Shown piece after piece: positions 12,992 to 44,331 of a DNA stretch of 45,580 nt. Position 1 is the stretch's first letter. Each line of letters starts with the position of its first letter. The position numbers and the translations under genes were made by a program. Source of the DNA: Actinomycetota bacterium (GTDB lineage: Bacteria > Actinomycetota > Actinomycetes > Actinomycetales > Microbacteriaceae); contig JAIUOH010000026.1 of assembly GCA_020161315.1 (NCBI GenBank), positions 1 through 45,580 of the forward strand, given 5' to 3'. The notes under the pieces were generated by a model. That model had not been told where the DNA came from and ran no database searches. It was given only the letters and a program-made list of their open reading frames with translations.

Positions 12992-15900
12992 CTATGCGTG
13001 CCGCGCCTGCTGGCGCTTGCGGCCCGCGAGGTAGGTGCCACCGCCAAGCAGCAGCATCAGGGCAATCGCGGCCAGCACGCCACCGGCGAGGTCACCGCCG
13101 GTGACCACCAGCGGATCAACCGGCTTCACCTTGACCACCGCGTCATCGATCAGCACCGATTCTTCGGTGAGCTGCGACTCGGTCGTCACCTCGGCAACGT
13201 TGGTAATCTCGTGGTTTGGCTGGTCGTAGGCGGCCTGCAGCACGTTGACCACGAGCAGCAGCTCGACCTTCTCGCCGACGCCCAGGGGCTTGGTGAGGGT
13301 CCAGGTAACCAGACCGTTCGCGTGGTCGACCGTCGCGCCCTCCGGCAGCTTCGGCGACTCGCGGAAGCTGAGACCAGCGGGCAGCTGGTCGGTCACGGTG
13401 ATCGGGCCGAGATCGGTGTGCGGGCCGAGGTTCTCGACCGTGATCGAGTACGTGCCGGCCTTACCCACCTTGAACTCGCCAACCGCGGTCTTCTCGAGCA
13501 CGAGGGTCACCAGGGGCTGCACGAGAATCGGGTCTTCGAACTCGTTGTTCTCGGGCTCGGGGTCGGGCTCGTTCGCGTCGGTGATCGCGACGTGGTTCAC
13601 CACGTCGTTTGCCTCACCGTCGGTCTCGCTGAACGCCTGCTCGTGCACGATGGTGTCGATTACGAGCGACGGCACGCTCGCGCCCACCTCGGTCACGCCG
13701 GTGTAGGTGGCGACAACCTCGGTCGTTTGCGTCGGGTCGTAGACGTCGGGTGTGATCGAGTCGATCACCCAGCCGGTCGGCTGATCGTCTGCATCGAGCA
13801 CAGGGCCGACCACACTGGTCACCTCGAAGCCGACCGGCATCGTGTCGGTGATCGTGAAGCCACTCGAGACCGACGGGCCGTGGTTGGTCACGTCGATGGT
13901 GAACGGCAGCGCTTCACCCACGATCACGCGATCACGATCATCGGCTACCGGGTGCGACTTCGTGATCTCGAGGTCGGCCGAGCGCGTGATGTTAAGCGCA
14001 GCGTCATCGGTATTCGGGTGCGGATCAACAGCTGGTTCGGGGGTGCCCGAGGTCACCGTCGCCGTGTTCAGCAATGCTGGCACGTCAATTGAAGTTGCCT
14101 CGAGACTAGACGAGAGCAGCACATCGAAGAGGATCGGCGGGGCCGCGGTTGCGGCTGCCCCCACGATGGGCAGGCCAACGTTTGCCCCACCGGCCACGCG
14201 GGTGAAGGTCACGACCTGTGGCACTGCGGGGTCGTAGTCGGCGGCATCGATCGCCCAGTTCGCGGCGGTGTTACCGACTGGCCCGACGTAGGCGACGCCG
14301 AGCGGCAGCGTATCGGTCACCACGAGGTCGGGCACCGCGTCGCTCGGACCGTAGTTGGTCACATCGAGACGGTAGCGCGCTTGTTCGCCTGCCACGGCCG
14401 AGGTGACCTCGGTCGTGTTGTCTTCTGGGTCGACGGCCGTCTTCACGAGGCCGAGATCGGCCTGAGTAGTCACCGTGATGTCTACCCTGCTCGACTTGTG
14501 GCGCGGGTCGTCTTCGGGGTCAGCGAAGGTGCGGCTATCTGTCCAGCTGAGGTCAGCGACGTTCGTGAACGGGTTTGTCTGAGTGGTGGTGGGCAGACCG
14601 CTGGCAATCTTCGCGACAACCGTGATGGTCGAAGTGCCCACCGGGTGCGCACCAACGTAGTCGCAGCTGCCGCTCGAAGCACCCGCCGCTGCTACGCAGG
14701 TCCAGTTGGTGCCAGACATCGAGACCATTGTGAGGCCACTCGGCAGGGTGTCAACGACGCGAGCCGTAGGCGCCGCAGATGGGCCAGAATTGGTCACTGT
14801 CAGCGTGTAGCTGACGTTCGTGCCAGCAAGCCACGGGCCGTCTGCAACGGTCTTCACGATCGACATCTCGGCGAGGGTATCGATGCGCACGTTCGCGTCG
14901 TCGGTGTTGTTCGCCGGGTTGGGGTCGTTCTGACCGGTCACCGTGGCCTCGTTGCGAACGCTGGCGGCAGCACCGTGGGTCGAGGCGACAGTTGCCTGCA
15001 GCTCGATCACGATCTGGTTGCTGCCCGTCGCCGATGAGAGCGTGCCCGTGTCTGGCAGCGCCACCCAGCTGAGGTTCTGACCCACCACCGCGGGCTCGGC
15101 CGACACGCCGCCTACCGTTGCCGAGCCGGCAACGTAGGTAAAGTTTGCGGGCAGCGCATCGGACACGCTGATCGGGCCAACCGCGTGGCTCGGTCCGTTG
15201 TTCGTAACCGTCAGACGGTAGGTAACCACGTCACCCGCGTGCACGACTGGCAGATTCGGGGACTCTGGGAGCACGGTGCCAGCAAGACCACTGATCACGT
15301 CTTTCTGTATTGACAGGTCAGACACTCGGTTCGAGTTGAAGCCCTCGCACGCACGTGGCTGGCTGCTGTTGTCAGCGGAGCCGGCCTGTACGCAGTTGCT
15401 TACATTTTCGGGGGTCGAAGCCGAGGTGCCGTACTCAACCACGAATTGACGTGAAGCACCGACCGGCAGCGTGTTACTGTCGCTGGTCAGGCTGAACTGA
15501 TCCCAAGTACCGTTCGTGTGCAGGCTACGAGTCCAGGTCGCGGGCGACACTGCTTCGAAGCCCACATAGCTGAGGCCTGTCGGCACTTCGTCTACGACAA
15601 CCACGTTGCGGGCCACCGCCAAACCATTGTTCGACACGGTGACGAGGTAGTGCACCGGGTCGCCTGCGCGCACAGGAGGCACAGGATCCTGTTCGGCGGC
15701 GGGCTTCCACTCGCCGTTGACCTCCACCACACGCACCTTCGAAACACCGAGGGTCGTATTGAACGTCGGGGTCGCAGGAACGGTGCTGGAGTTGTTCGAG
15801 GTCTTCGGGTCTGGGGTGAGGCCAGCGCCCGGGGCAATAGTCGCGGTATTGCGGATGCTACCGTCACCCTGCGGGCCCGAGGCCGGAGTCCATGTGGGGT

Positions 15901-18900
15901 CAACGGTACCGTTCAGCGTGATTGCTGGCGCTCCGCCGACAGACATCGACAGGTAGCTCGCGTTCAGCGTGAAGGTGATCGTGTCGCCCGCATCGGCAGG
16001 GAACCCGCCGGGCACGGTAGCCGTCCAAACGGCATTGGTCAACATGATGACGCCGTTGACGCCTGCGGGCACCGTGTCTGTGATCGTAATCGGGCTTGCC
16101 TCGGTGTTGCGCGAGACAGAGGGGCCATTGTTGCTCGGCGTGATCGTCCAGCTGATCGAGCCGCCTGCGTTCGGCGTCGCCGGCGTAACCGACTTCGCTA
16201 CCTGCAGATCTGCGCTCTCGATGAGCGTGCGGCTGTCATCGTCGGTGTTCGGGTTGGTCGCAGTCGGCCCCTGAGTCTCGGGCTTCTCATAAGTGCGGCC
16301 AAGCACGGTTGCCTGGTTGCTCACCGCGGCACCGGGCACCGCCGAGGTCGACACTGTCACGTTGGCTCGCAGCACAATCTTGTCGCTGCCATTGGCAAGC
16401 AATCTGGTGTCGTTGGCACCCACGCTGAACGAGGTTCCGGTGTAGGTGCCAATAGTGGACTCAACACCGGTCGGGCTCACGTAGACCGCAGTCCAGTCGC
16501 TGACCGTCACACCAGCCGGGGTGGTCGGGGTGTCGCTGACCGCGAACGGGCCATAGCTATCGGCGGGCCCGTGGTTCGTGACCGTGATCTCCCACTGAGG
16601 CTGCGTGTAGACGCCGGTCTCAACACTCTGCCCGATGACCCACTGGTTTGCGGCCACGCCAGCGAGCGGGTGATCTGCCGGAATAGTGTTCGTCGTGCCA
16701 CCCTTCGCCTGCTTCACAAGCTTCAGGTCTGCAACTCGCAAGAACGCGCTGTCGCTCGCGTTCGGGCCGGTGTAGCTGCCCGACTGATTCGCACTCAGGT
16801 TTGTGCGGTCAGTTGTCACTGCCGACAGCGTGTTGGTGTGCGGATTCGAGTTGCCGACACCCGGGGTCGCGAGCGCCTCTGGATTCATCGGTGTCGCGGT
16901 GTAGCGGATCACGATGCTCTGACCCGGCAGCAGTGTGGCCGCAGGCACACCGTTCACCGAGTCCGCACCGAAGGTCCACACGAGCGGACCGGTCGGGCCG
17001 CCGGTCGGAGCGGCGGCGGCCTGGGCCGCACCACCAACGGTGATGCTGGTGACCGCTGTGAACTGCCAGTTTGCGGGCAGCGTATCGGTCAGCACAACCT
17101 TCTGAGCTGCACCCTGGCCCGAGTTCGTTGCGGTGAGCTGCCACTCGAATGGCTCGCCGACATATGCGGTTTTGGAGCTGTCGACGGCGGCCTTCGCAAG
17201 CATCACCTTCGGGAAGAGCGGGGTCACCGATGCGCTCGAAGTGGTTCCCGTCGTCGGAATAGTAACGGTACCGTCTCCGCTCGGACGCGTGCCCGGCTTG
17301 CCTGTCGCGCCCGGCTGGTACAGCCAACCACCGGTCGTTGCCGAGGTATAAGACACCACCTTGCCCGTGTTCTGCTGGGCCACGCCAACGCTCCACGTCG
17401 AGGCGTTTGTCGAGGCGGGGTTCGCCGATACCAGCGAGCCAGCTGCTGCAAACTTCGCGTCGTAGGTGAGGTCAAGCGAAGCGGCGGCAGCGATAGCGCT
17501 CAGGCCGGTCCAGGTGATCGTGCCACCGGCACATCCGGTGACCGGGGTCGACGAGTACACCCCACCGGTGGGCAGAATGTTTGTCACGCCGACAACGTCT
17601 TCTGGCAGGCAGTCGGTGATCGCACCGCTGTAGGCAGGGCTATTGCCGATGTTCGAGACACGCAGACGATAGGTGAAGACCTGATCAACGTTGCCGGTCT
17701 TCGATGCAGCATACGTCGTGTCGGCCGCACCCTGCAGCTTCACCTGCTTCTGAATCCTCAACTCGGGGTTCAAGATTGTCACGGTCGCTGTGGCGGGTGC
17801 TTCGATCCGGGTGCCAGGAACGTCATCAGCCGAGTTCGTGTTCCACGAGAAGGTTGCCGTGTTGTCTGGTGTGCCCGACACGACCGAGTCTAGAATTTTC
17901 GCCTGGTAAGTGACGACGACCTGACGGGCTGTAACTGCCGTAGCGATCGTGCCCGCACCGATGACCCAGTTCAGCTGCTGGCCGCTCGCGACGTCACCTG
18001 TCTTCAGTGGCTCGTTCGTGACAAGCGGGCCGCCGGCGAACGTCGCGACTGCAGAGTTCTCAACGTACTCGATACCTGCTGGCAACTGATCCTTCAGATC
18101 AACGAAGTAATAGTTCGCGTTTGCCGGAATGGTGGTCGTGAGCGTGTAGGTCACGGTAGCACCGACCGGCGCCGAGGTCGGCGAGACCGACTTCGCCTGT
18201 GTCGCAGAAGCGACCGGCACCGTGTCTTGCGCGAGGGCGGTGCTCTCGCCGCGTCGGTCGGTCGCGTTAGGGCGCGAGTCAGGAAGCGTGTACCCGGTGA
18301 TCTTCGCGTGGTTCGTGTAGCTCACACCGCCGGCCGCGTCAGGGTTCACCGTGGTGGTAAACGAGAGCGTTGGGGTAGCGCCTGAGTTGATAGCGCCAAC
18401 TTGCCAGCGAATCAGCGTGCCAGAGCCCCCAGGGTCGTTGGTGTTGATGACCGCGTTCGCTCCCGTACCCGCAACAGAGCAGTTCACGCCGCTCACAACT
18501 GCAGCGGTGCCCTGACTTGGCGTGATCGCTGTGATTCCGGTGAAGCCAGCGGGCAGGCAATCGTAGACGACTGAGTCGAACAGGGTCGGGCGATCAGCTG
18601 TGTTGCCCGCGGTCAGCGTGAACTCCACCGCACCGCTGGCGCCGTCGACACCGGTGTGGCGCTTTTCGAGGGTCGCCTGAGGCGCAATGAACGGCACCGA
18701 AGCGTCGTCGTCGAGCACCTTCGCGGCACCCTGGCCGTTGTTGTAGGTGAACGTCGCAACGTTGTAGAGCGTATTGCCGTGCGACAGCGCACCGACCGCA
18801 GTCGGGCCGTCTGCCACGCGCACGCGCAGGTGCACGGTAAAGACGCGATCCTCGTCGTCCGCATCGAATCGCTGGTCGAAGGTGAGCGTACCGGTGGCGT

Positions 18901-21900
18901 TCGCGAAGGTGAAATTCCCCGCGTTTGCGTTGCTCGGATACGTCACCGAAGTGCCGGCCGGCTCGACCGTGTAGTTGATGCGGGTGCCAGTCTCGCTACC
19001 GAGTGTGAAGTAGCCGCGGTCGGCGAGCACCGCGCCCGCTGGCACGCTTGTGTACGCGGGAACGGTCACCTTGTAGTCGAAGGTCGCGAACTCGCCCTGA
19101 ACAATCTGGCCGTTACCATTGTTCGTACCAAGGTTGTTCTCACCGATGGGGGCAGACGAGGCAGGATTCGGCCCAATCTCTGTCGCGGCCAGCTCCTTCG
19201 CGAACTCGGCATCGGGCAACGTGAAGCCCGATGGGTCGGTCATGAAGTCGGCGGCGACCGGGTAGGAATCGGGCACGGAGCTCGCCGCACGAGCCGACAC
19301 CGAGAGCGCGGTTTCGTTCGACTTCCGGTGGTCGACGCCTTCCGAGCTGCCGCCCGTCGGCACCTGAGTGGTCGGGCTGGCCGTCGGAACGTTTGCGATG
19401 ACGGTGCTGGTGTCGTTAACGTTCTGCACATCGAACTGGACGATCGACGCGGTGTTCGTGAACTGCTGCGCAATCAGCGCAGGGTCACTATCAGTGTCAC
19501 CGTCTGGCACGTTGATCGTGTAGAACAGCGAGATTCCGCGCTGGATCGCGTCATCAGCGTCCGTGGCCGGCGTCGATCCGGGAACAGGCGCTGTCACAGT
19601 CCAAACGACGATGCTTCGGCCGCTGTAGCCGGGGTTGATCTGCCCCCACGAAGCGAAATCAGTGTCTCCCGGATTGTAAGCGTGAGCGGTAAATGCAGAG
19701 GTTGCTGTTGCCGCGGCATCGTCGGCCCAGATTTCCGCGTTCGCCGTAATCGTGTCGGTGGTCTCGTTGTAACCCGCGAGATCCGCTGCCTGAATGCCTT
19801 CGGGCAGTGCGTCCCAGATCTGGTACCCGGTCGTCACTGAGGCGGGCGAAGTCACGTCGAGACGGAACTTCAGCGCGTCGGCCTGCACGACTGGCCCGCG
19901 ATCCTGCATGTCGACGTTGCTGTTTACCCCGTAGCTATCTGCACCGACGCTCGCGATGCCCTTGACGAGACGCGGCGACATGTCGGGAACGATCTCTGCC
20001 TGGCGTCGCTGGAAGAAGATCTCGCCGTCGACGTTCTCTTGCTGGTACTTTGCTAGGTTCTGGCTCAGGTCGGTCTTGCCGAACGCCTGCGCGTCGCTGA
20101 TGGTGACCTTAATGTAGAAGTCGAGATCGATGCCGCCCGGCCAGAACCGAGCGCTCGAGGCGCTGGGGCCGCTCGAGTAGCAATCAGCCGAACCGAGTGT
20201 CCAGGTGAGGCGGCTGTTGTTGTCAGACAGGGCAACCTTGCCGACGAACTCATCGAAAGCGGTTGCCGAGTCGGTGTAGCTGCACTCGGGCGTGATCTCA
20301 AGCGGGCTGCCGGCGTCAATCGTAATGGGCACGCCGTTCTGAGATGCGACCACCCGAAGGTTTGAAGAGGCGCCCCACTCGTTCGCGGCATCGAGACCAT
20401 TCGGGTCGAACCTGACGCCCTGCGGCAAGAAATCAGTGAGCACGGGGTTGCGCACCTCGGCACCACGCGCAGTGTCCCAATGAATCTTGAACCAGACCTG
20501 GTCACCGATGCCGAACGGCTTGGATTCTTTGCCGGTCCACGGATACGCAGGATCAGCCGGGTCGGTGACCGCGCCGCTGCCATAGTCGAGCGCCACGACG
20601 CCGTCGGCATCGAGCGCACCGAGGTCAGGCGTGTTGCGCAGCAAAGACTTCTGTGTGTCGCTGTAATTCGTCACGACCGTTGCCTGCGAGTCGTCCCAGG
20701 TGAAGTAGTCGTCGCCGACCTCGGCCCCGCCGTCGTTGACGAGCCCATCAGTCTCGGTGCGCGGCGTGGTCTTCGCCTCGATCTCGGCGGTGTTGATGAC
20801 AGTGTCGCCCGAGCTCGTCGCGCCGTTCTTACCGTCGGCGCCGTCGGTGACGTAGCTCTGATTCTGGCGTGCCGAGTAGATAATCTCGATCTCCGCATTC
20901 GGCGCGGCGAACGCGTCAGCGTTTGGCGTATCGAGCACGAACTGCTGCGTGAATCGGCCAGTGGATGAGTCGAAGGCGACGCTCGCAACAGTCGCGCCCG
21001 AGAGCTTGGCATCCTCGGCGTCGTCGCTCTCCGCATCCCACTTGCACTCAGAAAGGCCCGCCGCATCAAGTGCCGTGTTCCACTCCTCGAGCGTCGCAGG
21101 CACCGAGCCCAGCAGCAATTCATCGGGAGCAGCAGCCGTGGGCGGGTACACCGGGCACAGGCCGTTCGCAAAGGTATCACTGATGTGTGTGGTGCCACCG
21201 TCGACTGCAGCCCCAACGTACTCGCTCGTCTCGATCGTCACGCGGTAGTCGGCGATGTTGCCCTGTGCGAATGACGCCTGGCTCGACCAATCGCCGCCAC
21301 CAATGCGCACCGACTTCAGCACACGCACGTCAGTGACCTGCACCGAGTTATCGGCGTGGTCCTCGCTCCAAACCGGGGTCAGGCCACCGCTGGCACCACG
21401 CCAATTACCGCCACCGATCACCGTGTTTGTCAGCGCTTTAGTTTGCTTGTCACCCTGGAGCGCCCCACTGTTTGCGGTGCCCTGTCGGGTCGATGCGCCG
21501 CGGTTGTTGTCGAGGTTGGCGCCTTGCGCACCGGTCGTGGCCGGAGTGCCGGGCGTCGTGCCCTCAAACGTCATGGTGTTCTCAAACAGTGGCACGCCCG
21601 CGCGGTAGCTGATGGTCGTGATGCCGGGCACGCCAGCGGTACCCGGGAAGGTCTGTTTCGAACCAGCTGTTGAGGTGTTGGTTCTCGGCAAAGCACCAAG
21701 ATTCCAGGTCACCTTCGTAAAGACCTGCCCGCCGCTGCTGGAAGTAAACACGCCGTCAACGAGTGTGCCCTGCACAGTCTCGACAGTCGCTGCATCAAGG
21801 CAGTTCGCGCCGGCGCCACCGGTCATCATCTCGCCTGAATCTAGCCACTCTTCATCACCGGCATCATTGCCAGCGTCAGTAGTGTTATCGCTGGCGGTGC

Positions 21901-22792
21901 ACGACCCGAGATATTCAAGGCCCGCTGGCAGGTAATCGACCACCGTCGAGTCAGAAAGGGGGCCCTCGCCGGTGTGATGCACCGTCAGTGTGTAGATGGT
22001 GGTGTTGTCGTGCACACCGCGCAGCAGCTCGCCCTCTGGCGCGCCTGCGACGCTCTTTTCAACGCGCAGTGCGCGCATCTTCGGGTCAATCTCGTCTACT
22101 CCGGGGGCTGAGGTCGCGGTCTTCGCGTCGGTACCACCGACTCCGGTGCCTCCGGGGAACACCGGAATGAAACGTTCCATCGCGCTCGTGTAGGCGCGCA
22201 CCGCAACTTCGAGCTTGTCACCGACCGCGTAACCGCCCGCGATGCCACCTGTATCGGTCGTGTTTACTTTCGGGCGCAGTTCAATCGACCCGCTCTGGGT
22301 ACCGGTTGCGGGCAAATCAGAGAAGTTCTGGAACACCGCGTACTGTTTGCCCGCAGGCACAGCACACTTGCCAGAAGCTGCCGGTGTGGGGTCGACAAGC
22401 CCGAGGTTGGTACAGGTATAGGTGGCGTCAGCCATTTCACCCGGCAACACGGTGCCTGCAGGGTAGACAGCGGTGGGGGTGCCAAACGAGCCACCGACAA
22501 TGTCGACCGTCGCAGGCAGCAGTGCGGTGATGCTGAGGTTGTAGATCGCTGTTGCGCCCGCGGGGTTTGCGATGCTCACGTCGACGACAACGTCTTCACC
22601 GAGCACCGGCGACTCTGCGATGCCAACATTGACGGTAGGCGCAATCGGCGCGGCCAGCGCACTCTGCACACCAATTCCGGCGACGACGGCCATGCCCGCA
22701 AGCAATGTCGCTGCTGCGCCACCTGAAATGAGTTTTTGTGCTCGCGTCCAACGGTGCGCACGCGTGTTACCCGACACTGAAAGCTCAGCCAC
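12992..22792 (-). CDS. Giant secreted DUF11-repeat surface protein
   Basis: About 3266 residues. The N-terminus has a basic stretch (HRWTRAQK), a hydrophobic core and an ALAAP cleavage site: a Sec signal peptide. Most of the rest is a train of DUF11/isopeptide-like beta-sandwich modules; the clearest in the C-terminal third share V.Y.LTVTN.GPS and then DTLP.G (for example YRLTVTNNGPSHAVG, YTLTVTNSGPSAAP, TIDVTNHGPSVSSG), with more divergent copies (LPAGI, LPAGF, LPANW) before them, over a dozen in all. The C-terminus is LVVTGG, a hydrophobic span and RKRQQARHA, resembling a sortase sorting signal with LxVTG in place of LPxTG. GTG 22792 is preferred to an in-frame TTG at 22804 because GGGGGAT lies just before it. 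It probably forms a long wall-anchored stalk for adhesion or shielding. Hairpins flank the gene at both ends. Confidence 0.88.
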   Translation of the reverse strand: MAELSVSGNTRAHRWTRAQKLISGGAAATLLAGMAVVAGIGVQSALAAPIAPTVNVGIAESPVLGEDVVVDVSIANPAGATAIYNLSITALLPATVDIVGGSFGTPTAVYPAGTVLPGEMADATYTCTNLGLVDPTPAASGKCAVPAGKQYAVFQNFSDLPATGTQSGSIELRPKVNTTDTGGIAGGYAVGDKLEVAVRAYTSAMERFIPVFPGGTGVGGTDAKTATSAPGVDEIDPKMRALRVEKSVAGAPEGELLRGVHDNTTIYTLTVHHTGEGPLSDSTVVDYLPAGLEYLGSCTASDNTTDAGNDAGDEEWLDSGEMMTGGAGANCLDAATVETVQGTLVDGVFTSSSGGQVFTKVTWNLGALPRTNTSTAGSKQTFPGTAGVPGITTISYRAGVPLFENTMTFEGTTPGTPATTGAQGANLDNNRGASTRQGTANSGALQGDKQTKALTNTVIGGGNWRGASGGLTPVWSEDHADNSVQVTDVRVLKSVRIGGGDWSSQASFAQGNIADYRVTIETSEYVGAAVDGGTTHISDTFANGLCPVYPPTAAAPDELLLGSVPATLEEWNTALDAAGLSECKWDAESDDAEDAKLSGATVASVAFDSSTGRFTQQFVLDTPNADAFAAPNAEIEIIYSARQNQSYVTDGADGKNGATSSGDTVINTAEIEAKTTPRTETDGLVNDGGAEVGDDYFTWDDSQATVVTNYSDTQKSLLRNTPDLGALDADGVVALDYGSGAVTDPADPAYPWTGKESKPFGIGDQVWFKIHWDTARGAEVRNPVLTDFLPQGVRFDPNGLDAANEWGASSNLRVVASQNGVPITIDAGSPLEITPECSYTDSATAFDEFVGKVALSDNNSRLTWTLGSADCYSSGPSASSARFWPGGIDLDFYIKVTISDAQAFGKTDLSQNLAKYQQENVDGEIFFQRRQAEIVPDMSPRLVKGIASVGADSYGVNSNVDMQDRGPVVQADALKFRLDVTSPASVTTGYQIWDALPEGIQAADLAGYNETTDTITANAEIWADDAAATATSAFTAHAYNPGDTDFASWGQINPGYSGRSIVVWTVTAPVPGSTPATDADDAIQRGISLFYTINVPDGDTDSDPALIAQQFTNTASIVQFDVQNVNDTSTVIANVPTASPTTQVPTGGSSEGVDHRKSNETALSVSARAASSVPDSYPVAADFMTDPSGFTLPDAEFAKELAATEIGPNPASSAPIGENNLGTNNGNGQIVQGEFATFDYKVTVPAYTSVPAGAVLADRGYFTLGSETGTRINYTVEPAGTSVTYPSNANAGNFTFANATGTLTFDQRFDADDEDRVFTVHLRVRVADGPTAVGALSHGNTLYNVATFTYNNGQGAAKVLDDDASVPFIAPQATLEKRHTGVDGASGAVEFTLTAGNTADRPTLFDSVVYDCLPAGFTGITAITPSQGTAAVVSGVNCSVAGTGANAVINTNDPGGSGTLIRWQVGAINSGATPTLSFTTTVNPDAAGGVSYTNHAKITGYTLPDSRPNATDRRGESTALAQDTVPVASATQAKSVSPTSAPVGATVTYTLTTTIPANANYYFVDLKDQLPAGIEYVENSAVATFAGGPLVTNEPLKTGDVASGQQLNWVIGAGTIATAVTARQVVVTYQAKILDSVVSGTPDNTATFSWNTNSADDVPGTRIEAPATATVTILNPELRIQKQVKLQGAADTTYAASKTGNVDQVFTYRLRVSNIGNSPAYSGAITDCLPEDVVGVTNILPTGGVYSSTPVTGCAGGTITWTGLSAIAAAASLDLTYDAKFAAAGSLVSANPASTNASTWSVGVAQQNTGKVVSYTSATTGGWLYQPGATGKPGTRPSGDGTVTIPTTGTTSSASVTPLFPKVMLAKAAVDSSKTAYVGEPFEWQLTATNSGQGAAQKVVLTDTLPANWQFTAVTSITVGGAAQAAAAPTGGPTGPLVWTFGADSVNGVPAATLLPGQSIVIRYTATPMNPEALATPGVGNSNPHTNTLSAVTTDRTNLSANQSGSYTGPNASDSAFLRVADLKLVKQAKGGTTNTIPADHPLAGVAANQWVIGQSVETGVYTQPQWEITVTNHGPADSYGPFAVSDTPTTPAGVTVSDWTAVYVSPTGVESTIGTYTGTSFSVGANDTRLLANGSDKIVLRANVTVSTSAVPGAAVSNQATVLGRTYEKPETQGPTATNPNTDDDSRTLIESADLQVAKSVTPATPNAGGSISWTITPSNNGPSVSRNTEASPITITDTVPAGVNGVIMLTNAVWTATVPGGFPADAGDTITFTLNASYLSMSVGGAPAITLNGTVDPTWTPASGPQGDGSIRNTATIAPGAGLTPDPKTSNNSSTVPATPTFNTTLGVSKVRVVEVNGEWKPAAEQDPVPPVRAGDPVHYLVTVSNNGLAVARNVVVVDEVPTGLSYVGFEAVSPATWTRSLHTNGTWDQFSLTSDSNTLPVGASRQFVVEYGTSASTPENVSNCVQAGSADNSSQPRACEGFNSNRVSDLSIQKDVISGLAGTVLPESPNLPVVHAGDVVTYRLTVTNNGPSHAVGPISVSDALPANFTYVAGSATVGGVSAEPAVVGQNLSWVALPDTGTLSSATGSNQIVIELQATVASTHGAAASVRNEATVTGQNDPNPANNTDDANVRIDTLAEMSIVKTVADGPWLAGTNVSYTLTVTNSGPSAAPTARVVDTLPSGLTMVSMSGTNWTCVAAAGASSGSCDYVGAHPVGTSTITVVAKIASGLPTTTQTNPFTNVADLSWTDSRTFADPEDDPRHKSSRVDITVTTQADLGLVKTAVDPEDNTTEVTSAVAGEQARYRLDVTNYGPSDAVPDLVVTDTLPLGVAYVGPVGNTAANWAIDAADYDPAVPQVVTFTRVAGGANVGLPIVGAAATAAPPILFDVLLSSSLEATSIDVPALLNTATVTSGTPEPAVDPHPNTDDAALNITRSADLEITKSHPVADDRDRVIVGEALPFTIDVTNHGPSVSSGFTITDTMPVGFEVTSVVGPVLDADDQPTGWVIDSITPDVYDPTQTTEVVATYTGVTEVGASVPSLVIDTIVHEQAFSETDGEANDVVNHVAITDANEPDPEPENNEFEDPILVQPLVTLVLEKTAVGEFKVGKAGTYSITVENLGPHTDLGPITVTDQLPAGLSFRESPKLPEGATVDHANGLVTWTLTKPLGVGEKVELLLVVNVLQAAYDQPNHEITNVAEVTTESQLTEESVLIDDAVVKVKPVDPLVVTGGDLAGGVLAAIALMLLLGGGTYLAGRKRQQARHA

Positions 22793-22822
22793 TTGATCCC
22801 CCAACAGATCTAGAAGAAGCGC

Positions 22823-38884: not shown

Positions 38885-41800
38885 TCAGTCGTTCTCGCCG
38901 CCACCCGAAGTGTTCTCTGCTGCACCTTGCGTGGGCACCGCACCAAATCGACGTGCGCCGAGAAGCAACACCACCGCACCCGCAAGGATGAACACCGCAG
39001 CCACTGCGAACGGCACCCAGTTATTCGACTCATCGGCGCCGGTCACCTCGAGAGTGCCCCAGGCTCCCTTGCTATTCGAGCCATTCGCGGCCCCGCCCAC
39101 CGAGATGTTTGCCATCGCCCCGTCAGCAAGTGCCTGCTGGGTCAGCATGCCGTCGATGGCAGCGCCGCCAGCACCGCCCGTGCCACCGGCGCCAGAATCA
39201 TCTTTCGCTGCAGCGTTTGCCGAAGCGTTGGTTGACGCGTTTCCAAACGCGAGGATCGCGCCATTCGCTGCGGCGCTGGCCGCAGCCCGCGTGTTGCCCT
39301 CTGCCGTAGCCGTCGCAGCCGCATCGATCGCGAAGTCTGCGGAAGCATCGGCGAGGCCTGCAGCCTGCGCTGCCGCAACCGCCGACGCGTTCACGTCGGC
39401 ATCAGCTACCGCCGACGCTTTTACGGACGCATCAGCCGTCGCGGCGTTCTCCGCGGCCGCATTCGCGCTGGCGTCGCGGGCCGCGGAGGCCTCGTTGTCG
39501 CGGTTCGCGAAGGCGGCCGCGCGGGCGGCTGCCTGGGCCGCGATGTCGCCATTGGCGGTTGCTCGGGCAGATGCCGAGGCAGAAGCCGAAGCGTTCGCCT
39601 GGGCGTTCACGTGGCCTGACGCCGTCGCCGAAGCCTCAGAGCCATCGTCTCCGTCTTCATCAGCACCGTTCGGGTCGCCATCGATGTTGTGATCTTCTGG
39701 CTCGAACATCGCGCCACGTGCCGCGGCATTTGCTGCCATGCTCGAATCACTCTCGGCCGCGGCAGAGGCCACGGCATCGGCATCGTTGTCGCTCGAGTCG
39801 TCAGCCAAACCTGCCGCCCGAGCGGCAGCCAGCGCCGCCGAGTTTGCGGTGGTCGTTGCGGTTGTCGAGGCATCGCGTGAGGCGGTCGCGAAAGCTGCTG
39901 CCTGGGCAGCGATGTTCGCGTTAGCTGTCGCCGCTGCCGAGGCCGCGCTCGTCGCGTCGGCGTAGGCCGCAGCCTTTGCTGCGGCGACGGCCGCAGGGTT
40001 GCCATTGACAGTTGCGTTCGCCGAGGCTGCAGCCGAAGCCGAGGCGTTGGCTTGTGCGCGTGAGTCGGTTGATGCCTGCGAGAGTGCCTGGGCCGCGCCG
40101 TCTGCCGACGCATCAGTGTCGGCAGTTGCTGCTGCCGACGCAGACGCAGTCGAAGACGCCGACGGGTCAGCTGCGACGTTTGCGGCGGAATCCGCGCGCC
40201 CACTCGCCGTGCCCTGAGCAGAGCCTGACGCATTCGAGGCTGACAAACTGTGCGAGTTCGCCGATGCCTGCGCCGCAGCCTGCGCCTCGGCGACAGTGCT
40301 GCCGTCGTGGTCGCTGTCGGCAGAGGCATTCGTTGAAGCCGAGGCGCGGGCGGCGGCCTTGGCGGCAGCCTCTGCCGCCGCCTCAGCGTTCGCCGTTGCG
40401 GCGGCAGAGGCCTGCGCCGACGCTGTCGACTGCGCATTCGCCCACGCCGCCGAGATGGCAGCGGCCTGTGCTGCCGGGTTGTTGTCGCCGTCGGCGCGAG
40501 CCGATGCCGACGCCGACGCCGACGCGTTCGCGTTGGTGTCTGCCGATGCCGAGGCCGACGCTTGGCCCGACGCCGCACCGTTTGAGGCAGCCGAAGCCGC
40601 AGCAGAGGCGTTCGAGTTGGCGGCTGCACTTGAACGCGCCGCGCTGTAAGAACTGCCGCTCGCGTCTGCGCTACCCTGCGCCGACGCCTGAGCCGAGGCG
40701 TTCTCGGCTGAAGCCACGTCAGCCGACGCGCGGGTGGCCGCGGTGCTTGATGCGTTTGAAGAAATCTCTGCGGCGGCACGCGCGGCCGGGTCACCGGTGA
40801 GCGGGTCAGCTGCAGCGTCTGCGGCAGCAGAGGCGGTAAGCGTCGCATCTGCGAGGCCAGCTGCTTGAGCCGCGGCCTGAGCGGCGGCGTAAGCACTCAC
40901 GTCGGCACGTGCAGAGGCCGAAGCAGAGGCCGAAGCATTCGCGCCCTGACCGTTGCGCAGGTACTCGAAGCCCTGCATGTACAGCAGCGGCGGTTGCGGC
41001 ACTGCGTCAAGCTCAGTTTCACCTATCTCGGCGAGCACCCATGACACCTCGACGTCAACTTTGCCTGCGGCGTGCGCCGGCGTCTTCACCGCCCACACGC
41101 CACCTCCCCTCGGTATAAGTTCCGTGCCCGACACCCCGTCAAACTTCACATCGGTCACTGCATACGGGCGCAGCAGCGGTACCGGCGCAAAGTTGCTGTA
41201 AGGCGTTCCAGACATGGCCGAAGAAAAATCGATGCCCCAGGTATAGGCGATACCGTCAGAGCCATTAGCCACGCCGACGAACAGCGTCGACGAGCCATCA
41301 CTAAAGGTGACCCCAGGCGGGGCTGGCAGCACGGTAGGCACAAGAGTTTGCCTGCCCATGCTGCCCGTATCGTTCGCATCGAAAATCGAGCCCCACTGGT
41401 ACAGCGTGCCGTCGCTCGCGTGCGCCAGCGATTCAGCGTAGCCAGCCGACACGCTCGCGAAAGTAACGCCGGGCGTGGCGATCAGCGTCAGCACATTCGT
41501 GATGGGACCGTTATCGATCAGGCCGCTGCCCGCCGAGCCGTCACCAAGCTGTGCGGCGAAGTTGTTTCCCCAACTCCAGATACGCCCCTGCGCGTCAAGA
41601 GCGAGCGAGTGAGCAAAGCCCGCCGCGACACCCTTGAACGTGACACCAGGAACCGAAATGACAGTGGGCGTGTCTACGTCGAAAGTCGAATCGTTGGCGT
41701 GGCTCCCGTTCTCGCCGTCACCAAGCTGACCGCTCGCGTTACCACCCCACGTGTAAAGCGTGCCTGCGGTGTCGACTGCGATGCCGTGTGACCCGCCGGC

Positions 41801-42571
41801 GAAGAAGTCGGCGATCACCGTTCCTGCTGGAAACGGCACCTCATTCGGAACCGGCGAGTAATTGTTATCCGGGGTGTCATAGCCGAGCACCTGATGGTTA
41901 TCCCAACCCCACGAGTACAGTTTGCCGTTGTCACCGAGCGCAAAGGTGTGCGCCTCGGTGGCTGAGATTCGTACAAAGCTGACTCCGTCAGGCGTCTGCA
42001 CCTCAACCGGTACAGCCGACATCTCAGCGGGATCGCTACCGTATGGACAGTTATTGCTAGCGGGAATCGCAGTCTGCCCCAGCTGCCCACAACCGTTGCT
42101 GCCCCAGGCATAGGTCTTTCCATCGTTACCGAGCGCAACTGTGAAAGCAAACGCACCGACTACATCAGTGAACTCAAAGTCACTGCCAACACCTGCAGGA
42201 AGCACAACCTTTGTTGCTGCAAATATCGACGACTCGGTCGATCCAATGCCTAGTTGACCGCGAGAGTTATTGCCCCATGACCAAAGCACTCCCTCGTGAT
42301 CTTTCGCGAATACGTTGAGAACACCCGAGAAGACCTCTTTGAACGAGAGCTGGTCGAGCGGCGCGTGCACGGTCACTTCGGTGCCGCCGTACACTGGGCC
42401 TGAGTTTGGGGTCGGGGCCGGCGGCAGATCACCGGGTGCTGCGTTCGCTGCAGTTGGTGCGAGGATCGCGGCCAACACGACCGCGCCACCCAACAGACCG
42501 GCAACGGCCCGCGATGCGACCCTGTGGCGCGCACGCCTCACCCGCGACGGCTGCGTCAAAGACAACGTCAT
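38885..42571 (-). CDS. Secreted RCC1-propeller and silk-like surface protein
   Basis: A 1228-residue protein. A signal peptide (RVRRARHRVASRAVAG then AILAPTAANAAPG) is followed by a RCC1-type region of about residues 95-490 with seven WGxN..GQLG-like units (SWGNNSRGQLGIG, YAWGSNGCGQLG, YTWGGNASGQLGDG, SWGNNFAAQLGDG and more degenerate ones), predicted to be a seven-blade propeller. Residues of about 542-1124 are Ala/Ser/Asn/Asp-rich repeat. A hydrophobic span near the C-terminus (NWVPFAVAAVFILAGAVVLLLG, with LEVTGA before it and RRFG after) should anchor it, though a 25-residue hydrophilic tail follows, unlike most sortase substrates. ATG 42571 has GGGGAG before it; a 40-residue longer frame was rejected. 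It diverges from a sigma/anti-sigma fusion gene, a candidate regulator. Likely cell-surface adhesive or spacer. Confidence 0.85.
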   Translation of the reverse strand: MTLSLTQPSRVRRARHRVASRAVAGLLGGAVVLAAILAPTAANAAPGDLPPAPTPNSGPVYGGTEVTVHAPLDQLSFKEVFSGVLNVFAKDHEGVLWSWGNNSRGQLGIGSTESSIFAATKVVLPAGVGSDFEFTDVVGAFAFTVALGNDGKTYAWGSNGCGQLGQTAIPASNNCPYGSDPAEMSAVPVEVQTPDGVSFVRISATEAHTFALGDNGKLYSWGWDNHQVLGYDTPDNNYSPVPNEVPFPAGTVIADFFAGGSHGIAVDTAGTLYTWGGNASGQLGDGENGSHANDSTFDVDTPTVISVPGVTFKGVAAGFAHSLALDAQGRIWSWGNNFAAQLGDGSAGSGLIDNGPITNVLTLIATPGVTFASVSAGYAESLAHASDGTLYQWGSIFDANDTGSMGRQTLVPTVLPAPPGVTFSDGSSTLFVGVANGSDGIAYTWGIDFSSAMSGTPYSNFAPVPLLRPYAVTDVKFDGVSGTELIPRGGGVWAVKTPAHAAGKVDVEVSWVLAEIGETELDAVPQPPLLYMQGFEYLRNGQGANASASASASARADVSAYAAAQAAAQAAGLADATLTASAAADAAADPLTGDPAARAAAEISSNASSTAATRASADVASAENASAQASAQGSADASGSSYSAARSSAAANSNASAAASAASNGAASGQASASASADTNANASASASASARADGDNNPAAQAAAISAAWANAQSTASAQASAAATANAEAAAEAAAKAAARASASTNASADSDHDGSTVAEAQAAAQASANSHSLSASNASGSAQGTASGRADSAANVAADPSASSTASASAAATADTDASADGAAQALSQASTDSRAQANASASAAASANATVNGNPAAVAAAKAAAYADATSAASAAATANANIAAQAAAFATASRDASTTATTTANSAALAAARAAGLADDSSDNDADAVASAAAESDSSMAANAAARGAMFEPEDHNIDGDPNGADEDGDDGSEASATASGHVNAQANASASASASARATANGDIAAQAAARAAAFANRDNEASAARDASANAAAENAATADASVKASAVADADVNASAVAAAQAAGLADASADFAIDAAATATAEGNTRAAASAAANGAILAFGNASTNASANAAAKDDSGAGGTGGAGGAAIDGMLTQQALADGAMANISVGGAANGSNSKGAWGTLEVTGADESNNWVPFAVAAVFILAGAVVLLLGARRFGAVPTQGAAENTSGGGEND
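39200..40945 (-). repeat. Ala/Ser/Asn/Asp silk-like repeat region in the RCC1 gene
   Basis: About 580 codons made almost only of Ala, Ser, Asn, Asp, Thr, Gly, Gln, Glu and Arg. A super-repeat of roughly 140-160 residues recurs four times, each opening with ANASASA(S/A)ASA.A followed by polar residues and then an AAQAAA-type run (for example ARADGDNNPAAQAAAIS, ANATVNGNPAAVAAAKA, ARATANGDIAAQAAARA). Acidic loops DSDHDGS and DGDPNGADEDGDDG look like calcium-binding type. Internal codon repetition makes long antisense frames here. Confidence 0.85.
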
Positions 42572-42837
42572 CTTTAGCTCCCCATGTGCCCGCGCCCCCG
42601 CGCGAAACAATTTGCCACAGCATACGACGAAGCGCCGCAGCTCACCGTGCCCCGCAACCCTTCGCAAGGCAGTCTTCACCAATAGAAACACCGCGCGTGA
42701 GCAAATCTTGCACTGCGCTCAACATCCGGGCGTGTCGCGCTGAGTTTGAGCCACACCAACAGGGCACCCATTAGGTCGGGGCGCAACAAGAACGCCTATA
42801 GACTCAGTCGCAATCAAGGGCAAGAACGGGAGGGTCA
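42572..42837. promoter_or_regulatory. Divergent promoter region, RCC1 gene and sigma gene
   Basis: A 266-base gap between the leftward RCC1 gene (ATG 42571) and the rightward sigma-fusion gene (GTG 42838). On the plus strand TATAGA (42797-42802) is a plausible -10, with GGAGGG just before the GTG. On the minus strand CGTCGTATGCTG, about 60 bases before the RCC1 ATG, is a candidate -10 and might also suit an ECF-type CGTC -10. No clear palindrome. Confidence 0.45.
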
Positions 42838-44331
42838 GTGCCCGATCCCACGCGAGACGAAGAGCTGCTCAGCCGTGCAGCAAACGGCGACCTGCACGCT
42901 GCCGGGAAGCTGCTCGCCCCAATGCTGCCTGGCTTGCTGCCCGCTGCAAAGCGCCTCGCCGGCGACGCCATCGACCCAGAAGATCTGCTCGCCGAGGCCG
43001 TTGCCGCGGTGCTCGCAAAGTGGGCAGACGGTGCCGGCCCGCGCGACGGCGTGCGCAACTACCTGCTGCAGACGATGCGCAACCGAGCCCTTGACGAGGC
43101 TACCTCGCCGAGGTCGCGCACTCGGCCCCTTGAATTTGACGTAATCGACGTCGAATCCACACCGCCTGACGCCACCCTTGACCTTGATCACGAGCTCGAC
43201 GCGCTGCGGCTCGCGCTGGCCAGGCTGCCCGAGGCGCAACGCACGCTGCTCACCGAGACTTACCACGGCGGCGCCAAGTCTCGCGACCTCAGCGAGCAGC
43301 AGCATCGATCGGCGGGCGCGGTGTATTCACTACACTCGCGCGCAAAGGCGGCACTGCGGCGCGCCTACCTACAGGTGATGCTCGAAGAGGGCGCCCCGCC
43401 AAGTTGCCAGCACGCAATTGCTTCATTACCGACGAGGATCGCGGCCAGCCCCGATGAGACCGAGGGTGTGCCCGCACACATAGGCGAGTGCGCGCGGTGC
43501 CGCCGCGGGTGGGCGCGCTTTGCTGTGGTGTGGGCGGCGCTCGGGGTGGCTCCGCTGTTGGTGCTGGCGACGCCCGAAGCGGTGCCAGCGGCGACTGTTG
43601 GTGGCGGCTCAAGTGGCAGCGGCGACGCCTCGGTCGGTGGCGAGGCTAACGCGGTCACCGAGCACGATATCGGGGTGGCCGAAACAAGCCCGGTCAGGCC
43701 CGGTGCGGTCGCTGCCACCAGCGCGAAACCGCTGCTACTGGTCGGCGCGGCACTGTGCACTGTCGGCGTGGTCATCGGGGTGATTGCGACCGTGCAGCAA
43801 TTCGGCTCATCCGATGCGGCGGTCTCGGCGGCACAGCAGGATTTTGGCACCGCCGAGTTCGGCTCCGCACCGGGAACAGCGCAAACAGGGGCTACTGCAG
43901 CGGCCGATGCCGCCGTAGCCGACACTGACGCCCGCACGGGCACCATCTCGGGAACGATGACCTTCTACATCAGTGAGAGCGCCGGCAAGGAGCGCACCGC
44001 GAAGCTCGACTTCGCGCTCGCCGACGTCGAGTGGCAGGTCGACTCGGTGACATTCGCACTGCCCTCGGGCGTGGCCCTGGCCAGCGCACCCGATGGTTGG
44101 AGCTGCGACAACTCAGCCATCTGTCGCAGCGATAACAAAAACGCCCCGGGTGGCACATTCGTGCTCGCCGGCGCACCGGCCAACGCGACGAAAGCCGCCG
44201 AATTCGCCGTGCAATGGCTTGCCCACAGCGGAGAGCGCACGGTCACCTCAACCGTCGGCGGACCCTACCCCGCACCCGACGAACCCCTCTCGGTGCGGGC
44301 CGAGGCGAAGCAGGGATCCTCTTCGAACTAA
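42838..44331 (+). CDS. ECF-type sigma factor fused to zinc anti-sigma and membrane segments
   Basis: A 497-residue fusion. Residues 1-90 resemble sigma region 2 (DEELLSRAANGD... AIDPEDLLAEAVAAVLAKW ...NYLLQTMRNRALD) and 115-180 region 4 (LDALRLALARLPEAQRTLLTE then SAGAVYSLHSRAKAALRRAY). Then His214-x3-Cys218-x2-Cys221 (HIGECARC), the zinc anti-sigma motif, directly precedes hydrophobic stretch 1 (227-251); stretch 2 is at 298-320. The C-terminal domain (about 368-490) is beta-rich with GWSCDNSAICRSD and AVQWLAHSGERTVTSTV, like a DUF11 or Ig sandwich. If both stretches cross the membrane this domain would be inside; if only the second does, it is outside, where a disulfide is likelier. GTG 42838 follows GGAGGG. 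It diverges from the RCC1 surface-protein gene, probably its target. No separate anti-sigma gene is nearby. Confidence 0.85.
   Translation: MPDPTRDEELLSRAANGDLHAAGKLLAPMLPGLLPAAKRLAGDAIDPEDLLAEAVAAVLAKWADGAGPRDGVRNYLLQTMRNRALDEATSPRSRTRPLEFDVIDVESTPPDATLDLDHELDALRLALARLPEAQRTLLTETYHGGAKSRDLSEQQHRSAGAVYSLHSRAKAALRRAYLQVMLEEGAPPSCQHAIASLPTRIAASPDETEGVPAHIGECARCRRGWARFAVVWAALGVAPLLVLATPEAVPAATVGGGSSGSGDASVGGEANAVTEHDIGVAETSPVRPGAVAATSAKPLLLVGAALCTVGVVIGVIATVQQFGSSDAAVSAAQQDFGTAEFGSAPGTAQTGATAAADAAVADTDARTGTISGTMTFYISESAGKERTAKLDFALADVEWQVDSVTFALPSGVALASAPDGWSCDNSAICRSDNKNAPGGTFVLAGAPANATKAAEFAVQWLAHSGERTVTSTVGGPYPAPDEPLSVRAEAKQGSSSN

Follow-up and report, generated by a model that had tools for sequence, protein, structure and literature searches.

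The window analysed here, by which we mean the whole stretch of 45,580 nucleotides, contains at 42838..44331 (+ strand) a frame for a 497-aa protein with a GTG start, in which an ECF sigma factor, a zinc anti-sigma (ZAS) part, a membrane anchor and an ectodomain are fused, as judged from the open frame, family matches and relatives. Computation showed this architecture, the family and the adjacency to a surface-protein gene, together with a promoter-like signal that relatives have in common. We consider it fairly probable that the protein is an ECF sigma factor that is tethered to the membrane, inhibits itself and serves a single adjoining surface-protein gene.

Sigma and zinc anti-sigma parts in one frame

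The frame runs uninterrupted for 497 codons, with GGGAGGG directly 5' of its start. Sigma-70 region 2 (residues 31–89; 42928..43104, +) was matched by PF04542 with an E value of 1.2e-4 and a score of 22.2 bits, slightly under the Pfam cut-off of 24, and region 4 (residues 121–173; 43198..43356, +) by PF08281 (Sigma70_r4_2) with an E value of 8.7e-7 and a score over the cut-off. The NCBIfam model sigma70-ECF (TIGR02937) covered residues 21–176 with an E value of 1.6e-13, also over its cut-off. Two solved structures matched the window protein at <0.001, both of them ECF sigma factors. AlphaFold2 modelled the whole protein with a mean pLDDT of 73.4 and a pTM of 0.41; the sigma and ZAS parts were predicted with high confidence, loop 96–110 excepted, residues 249–350 were disordered and the C-terminal domain was all-beta. 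The sigma part of the model resembled the sigma chains of the AlgU–MucA and SigE–RseA complexes (E <0.001) and of SigW–RsiW (0.0015), with target-normalised TM-scores that were modest (0.40–0.46).

The ZAS motif, recognised from alignments, has the form C190-x23-H214-x3-C218-x2-C221 (43405..43500, +), HIGECARC being residues 214–221. H214, C218 and C221 were invariant in 40/40 aligned proteins, which had been chosen from 55 after the rows without Hx3Cx2C (2/57, both short and unfused) were dropped beforehand. C190 was present in 15/15 members of the window's clade and, from this sequence pattern, is the probable fourth zinc ligand. No match to Pfam zf-HC2 was reported for the window protein at an E value of 1; its ZAS motif region aligned with the zf-HC2 region of L128, a protein of the ECF52 type. 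The ZAS part would bind zinc and inhibit the sigma domains.

The preliminary description of this DNA had placed sigma regions 2 and 4, HIGECARC, hydrophobic stretches and a beta-rich cysteine-containing domain in one frame, and the Pfam and NCBIfam matches, the alignment and the AlphaFold2 model all bore this out. The same order of parts was found in many proteins of the genus and of the family genomes and is therefore not due to chance. That the frame might hold two genes was rejected on the strength of the open frame and of 54 relatives in which sigma and ZAS parts are likewise fused in one frame; judged in this way, the window protein is the product of a single gene.

Hydrophobic stretches and ectodomain

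Two hydrophobic stretches follow the ZAS motif, separated by a linker of 52 residues. Stretch 1 (residues 228–246; 43519..43575, +) starts at the seventh residue past the CxxC pair; AlphaFold2 predicted it as a continuation of the ZAS helices, with helices at 219–235 and 237–244. In the light of this model and of the charges around stretch 2, stretch 1 is probably the last ZAS helix covering the sigma domains and no membrane span; its mean hydropathy was at least 1.6 in 37/54 proteins. Stretch 2 (about residues 299–319; 43732..43794, +) has a mean hydropathy of 2.5–2.7. In the window protein it is preceded by two K/R and no D/E and followed by no K/R and one D/E, and the flanks summed over the 15-member clade contained 39 K/R and 6 D/E before the stretch, and 12 K/R and 21 D/E after it. 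The flank before stretch 2 was more positive than the flank after it in 53/54 proteins, the window protein included, a signal that is uneven in that 9/54 proteins had no K/R directly before the stretch. Judged from hydropathy and these flanking charges only, stretch 2 is likely to be the one helix after the ZAS part that crosses the membrane, which would leave the C-terminus outside. The preliminary description had been puzzled by a C-terminal domain that two spans would leave inside; the puzzle rested on counting both stretches as spans, and the charges favour one span and an outside C-terminus.

The C-terminal domain (43873..44328, +), a predicted beta-sandwich with C423 and C429, was alignable in 14/15 clade members. 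Modelled alone, it again gave a beta-sandwich (AlphaFold2 pLDDT 79.7, pTM 0.75). Both cysteines were kept in 14/15 clade members, L064 being the one without the pair. A fold search of the PDB with the ectodomain model returned nothing at 0.001 or better, and weak matches to beta domains of adhesins, adaptor appendages and pore proteins were set aside. Pfam named no domain in the C-terminal part of the window protein and gave a match to DUF5979 in one of 14 relatives' ectodomains (9.3e-4). An origin of the ectodomain from the neighbouring surface protein was also considered and rejected: a profile built from 14 clade ectodomains (L064 was left out beforehand) matched its own 14 members, the best other match was at 0.11, and no neighbour protein was matched significantly. 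Sensing of the neighbour is therefore without sequence support. Since one type of ectodomain accompanies varied neighbours, we conjecture that it more probably senses a cue general to the envelope or to anchoring than a neighbour-specific domain.

Relatives and known fused sigma factors

Matches at 1e-10 were obtained in 25/54 genomes of the genus (its own genome included), one of which held ten, and matches at 1e-12 in 26/199 genomes of the family. Two short proteins without ZAS (L059_1 and L095_4) were dropped from the 57 relatives to give a 55-row tree, and L037_0, too short for the ectodomain, was dropped to give the set of 54. In the tree of the 55 sigma–ZAS parts the window protein fell into a 15-row clade, with support of 100/100, separate from the other 40. 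Across the class, the clade profile found matches at 1e-15 in 72/246 genomes. Two proteins from large genomes, L128 and L129, contain sigma, zf-HC2, NPCBM and a proline-rich stretch and are labelled ECF52-type here by these domains rather than by an ECF model. L128 aligned with the clade profile over the sigma and ZAS parts only (E 5.5e-18). In a tree of sigma domains, the window branch, made up of 14 clade members (L067 left out) and the unfused L059_1, was set apart with support of 97/96 from L128 and L129, which fell with the other group. The four unfused sigma factors in this tree had long branches; L059_1 (208 aa) lay inside the clade and L134_10 adjacent to it (87/88). By eye, L059_1, the short sigma factor without ZAS at locus L059, lies beside transposase-like genes.

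NPCBM was absent from the C-terminal part of the window protein and from the 14 clade ectodomains scanned; NPCBM_assoc, which is a different model, matched one clade member at 0.0045. Nor was there a proline-rich region, with 5 Pro in window residues 247–345 compared with 39/173 in L128 and 34/156 in L129. On these sequence features, the window clade is not ECF52 proper.

The preliminary description had taken the order of parts to be without precedent, which did not hold: as far as PMC8999054 and PMC5826349 describe them, ECF48, ECF52 and ECF53 are C-terminal fusions of this sort, to ZAS and transmembrane parts, and proteolytic release is expected for them (PMC8999054). It had also allowed that the extension might align with a known subgroup of settled function; the subgroups that it resembles are of unsettled function. 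SCO4117, the ECF52 protein of Streptomyces coelicolor, is similar to the window protein in combining an ECF sigma factor, a zinc finger, a membrane part and an extracellular domain in one actinobacterial protein, and the account in PMC5826349 gives it wide effects and proposes release by proteolysis. It differs in that ECF52 has a proline-rich region and NPCBM and occurs in one copy in S. coelicolor (PMC5826349), whereas proteins of the window clade end in a beta domain with two cysteines, lie outside the NPCBM group and are encoded beside surface genes. ECF48 and ECF53, compared by description only, share the fused anti-sigma and membrane parts and the expectation of proteolysis (PMC8999054, PMC10766802). 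IutY (ECF243), likewise a sigma factor fused to a membrane anti-sigma, is released by Prc and RseP and is named in PMC8999054 as the sole fusion of this type with experimentally characterized activation; unlike the window protein, it belongs to a siderophore system of Pseudomonas. The SigI/RsgI pairs of Clostridium thermocellum, as far as they are described, offer another likeness, with several sigma/anti-sigma paralogues whose sensors control cell-surface machinery. SigI and RsgI are separate proteins, and the sigma family is a different one. Fusions of this kind have thus been described before; what looks new is their setting beside surface genes. Among titles and the openings of abstracts in the open-licence literature, a body outside which the main ECF classification paper lies, we recognized no fused ECF sigma factor linked to surface, LPXTG, sortase or adhesin genes.

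Surface-protein genes beside the sigma genes

The divergent neighbour of the window sigma gene (38885..42571, −) encodes a large surface protein with a signal peptide, RCC1, Ala/Ser-rich repeats, LEVTG and a C-terminal membrane segment. Its open frame extends to 42691; from the sequence, translation more probably begins at the ATG at 42571, which is accompanied by GGGGAG. Pfam matched the protein with WD40_RLD (2.8e-79) and RCC1 (6.6e-39). A gene for a large secreted or anchored protein adjoins the sigma gene in 14/15 clade members, and no convincing surface gene was found beside the sigma gene at L087. RCC1 was found in seven neighbours (those of the window, L086, L062, L090, L055 and L067, and weakly that of L058). 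Five others have different domains: SpaA and an Ig domain at L060, SpaA at L059, LRR and InlB-type repeats at L065, a repeat of CshA type at L063 and an Ig-type domain at L061; the L064 neighbour matched no family, and the frame of the L066 neighbour is split. RCC1 repeats are best known from eukaryotes; at the six loci other than L058 they are a frequent feature of these bacterial surface-type proteins. An [LI]xxTG pentapeptide, LEVTG in the window, was present in 14/15 neighbour C-termini examined, a set that takes in the protein encoded beside the split C36 sigma gene and leaves out those of L055 and L064.

The association extends to the wider family, where a C-terminal anchor was found in 37/108 adjacent genes compared with 10/270 genes at least four places off (Fisher p 2e-14). 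By a crude hydropathy rule applied to crude gene calls, a surface-type gene lay at most two places off in 34/39 proteins of the genus and in 7/18 from other genera; over all 57 proteins the count was 41/57, and 38/57 with an anchor. Another version of the rule, applied to the first set, gave 36/39 and, with an anchor, 31/39. The rule missed L055, an RCC1 protein without a visible anchor, and its sole mark at L087 (position −2, 391 aa) looks false; this mark was not counted for the clade, yet is among the 7/18.

In the window's own genome, all five fused sigma loci (C15, C27, C36, C31 and C1) have a surface-type neighbour. At the C36 paralogue (L056) the sigma frame is split, and it adjoins an intact 1580-aa anchored protein. 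At L143 (8978-15504), in the same genome, a fused sigma gene lies directly 5' of a gene for a 1227-aa LPNTG protein and one for a smaller LANTG protein. At L059 (1-12094), a fused sigma gene lies 5' of two genes for SpaA-like or anchored proteins and of a gene that, by eye, resembles a pilus-type sortase. Genes resembling LuxR-type regulators, read from their C-terminal sequence, lie near the clade loci L063, L087 and L059. The window encodes a second giant protein of secreted type (12992-22804, −; 3270 aa), and no fused sigma factor was noted among its called neighbours. The adjoining surface gene and the signal common to relatives, which are the strongest feature of the system, did not figure in the preliminary description.

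A promoter-like signal at the clade loci

Comparison of upstream regions suggested CGACAGATT-N14-GTCTTG as a promoter-like signal. The strict form (N13–15) gave 14 matches across the 15 clade loci compared with 0.25 expected, of which five lay before sigma genes, eight before neighbour genes and one within a sigma gene; the loose form gave 17 matches compared with 2.25 expected. Nine of the 15 loci have the strict signal before the sigma gene, the surface gene or both, and L059 adds two looser sites. L087 has a single loose match, away from its sigma gene, and the window, L058, L060 and L061 have neither a strict nor a loose match. The ~1.2 Mb of other loci yielded three strict matches, each a repeat copy of a place already counted, and thus no further place with the signal. 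In five cases the signal lay 41–217 bases from the called start of the neighbour; the distance was longer at L067 (444), L090 (561) and L066 (1394 bases); at L066 a frame of secreted type begins 87 bases after the signal.

Because the motif was derived from these loci, a genome-wide count is a fairer test. The exact N14 form was matched eight times in the 54 genomes of the genus, each time at a clade sigma locus. With N13–15 there were 17 matches (six in the reversed control), ten of them at clade loci, so that N13 and N15 placed only two of nine further matches there. One N14 match, at G035:C222, came from outside the derivation of the motif and lies ~220 bases before a sigma gene that is cut by the contig end and whose best match is the clade member L067 (95.7% over 93 residues). 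In 398 genomes of the family, the N14 form had 28 matches compared with 12, counted from the rows, in the reversed control; of the six among the 28 that were examined, four fell at clade loci already known, one each at C27 and G149 and two at G056, and two at G103:C18. The two copies at G103:C18 (L209, 7974-12634) precede several consecutive genes, the last of which, at the contig end, is an Ala/Ser-repeat frame resembling that of the window neighbour. Contig C19 of G103 begins with another sigma match, and C18 and C19 may adjoin.

The strict signal is absent from the window's own intergenic region, where a matrix made from the sites of 13 relatives placed the two best sites no higher than ranks 22 and 28 of the window. 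The site ranked 28, TGCAAGATT-N14-GTTTCT (42683..42713, −), is a weak candidate for the promoter that serves the surface gene and is spaced like the clade signal. An exact 14-mer, TCCGGGCGTGTCGC (42725..42738, +), lies between the divergent genes of the window and recurs in the corresponding regions of the C36 paralogue and of L058. In the 54 genomes it had 12 matches (two in the reversed control), three of which were at these loci, and both matches in the window's genome were at its sigma genes. The resemblance between sigma and neighbour upstream regions was no greater within loci than between them (10.64 vs 10.53 over 39 pairs), a negative result that is perhaps due to misplaced starts and to a motif common to clade members.

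Proposed mechanism and alternatives

In the reading that we favour, the fused ZAS domain would hold the sigma domains in the cytoplasm, and one span (about residues 299–319) would join this cytoplasmic part to the two-cysteine beta domain outside, which would sense an envelope cue. The extension would then be cut by an outside protease and next by the M50 intramembrane protease of the genome, or would open, and the freed sigma factor would, with RNA polymerase, transcribe its own gene and that of the adjacent adhesin-like, sortase-anchored protein, in the window the RCC1 neighbour. The proposal in the preliminary description of a membrane-held sigma factor in need of release or opening is supported to this extent, cleavage itself being presumed. 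A single M50 protease and four sortases are encoded by the window's genome; since M50 proteases were present in 14/14 control genomes, the former is weak and unspecific support. Tentatively, each such protein could go further and serve a single surface adhesin or pilus as a one-molecule feedback switch, whose conserved ectodomain watches the export, anchoring or engagement of sortase-type surface proteins at large and whose sigma part drives transcription of nothing but its own gene and the surface gene beside it.

It seems unlikely that the protein is an ordinary one-component sigma factor of the ECF52/53 type whose regulon is broad and covers, for instance, development or carbohydrate use, the surface gene next to it being a bystander. 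The match of the clade profile to ECF52-like sigma/zf-HC2/NPCBM proteins, alignable over sigma and ZAS parts, would suit this explanation, as would the wide effects of SCO4117, the sole studied ECF52 member as far as PMC5826349 goes. However, the clade is without NPCBM and stands apart in the sigma-domain tree (97/96), the N14 signal occurs in the 54 genomes of the genus only at clade loci, and the neighbourhoods differ, a surface-type gene being nearby in 34/39 proteins of the genus compared with 7/18 of other genera.

RsrA-type ZAS proteins are opened by oxidation or zinc loss. A cytoplasm-facing switch of this kind, whose two stretches would be embedded in the membrane or lie on it, with the C-terminus inside and opening without proteolysis, would fit the intact Cys/His zinc ligands and the hydropathy of stretch 1 in 37/54 proteins; the charge pattern of stretch 2, C-out in 53/54, and the two conserved ectodomain cysteines, which fit an outside disulfide, argue against it, and we regard it as quite improbable. 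Very improbable, in our judgement, is a decaying copy in the window that controls nothing any more: its frame is intact over 497 aa with the invariant residues of the clade, and two other loci retain the 14-mer that lies upstream of it, as against the weak window promoter and the C36 paralogue of the same genome, which is split between frames.

Implications

Fused sigma/anti-sigma proteins are spread across actinobacteria. As far as the cited accounts go, one ECF52 member has been studied (PMC5826349), and the sole characterized release, that of IutY, is not actinobacterial (PMC8999054). The clade described here brings a short list of predicted targets, namely itself and the next surface gene, together with a predicted promoter, and the fused kind of sigma factor therefore becomes directly testable. 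Were the feedback-switch reading true, the genome with ten matches would contain approximately ten parallel modules of 'one switch, one surface protein', insulated from one another. If the dedicated, self-inhibited sigma factor that we propose is real, the genus would manage many alternative surface proteins through private one-molecule switches, somewhat as SigI/RsgI do for cellulosomes.
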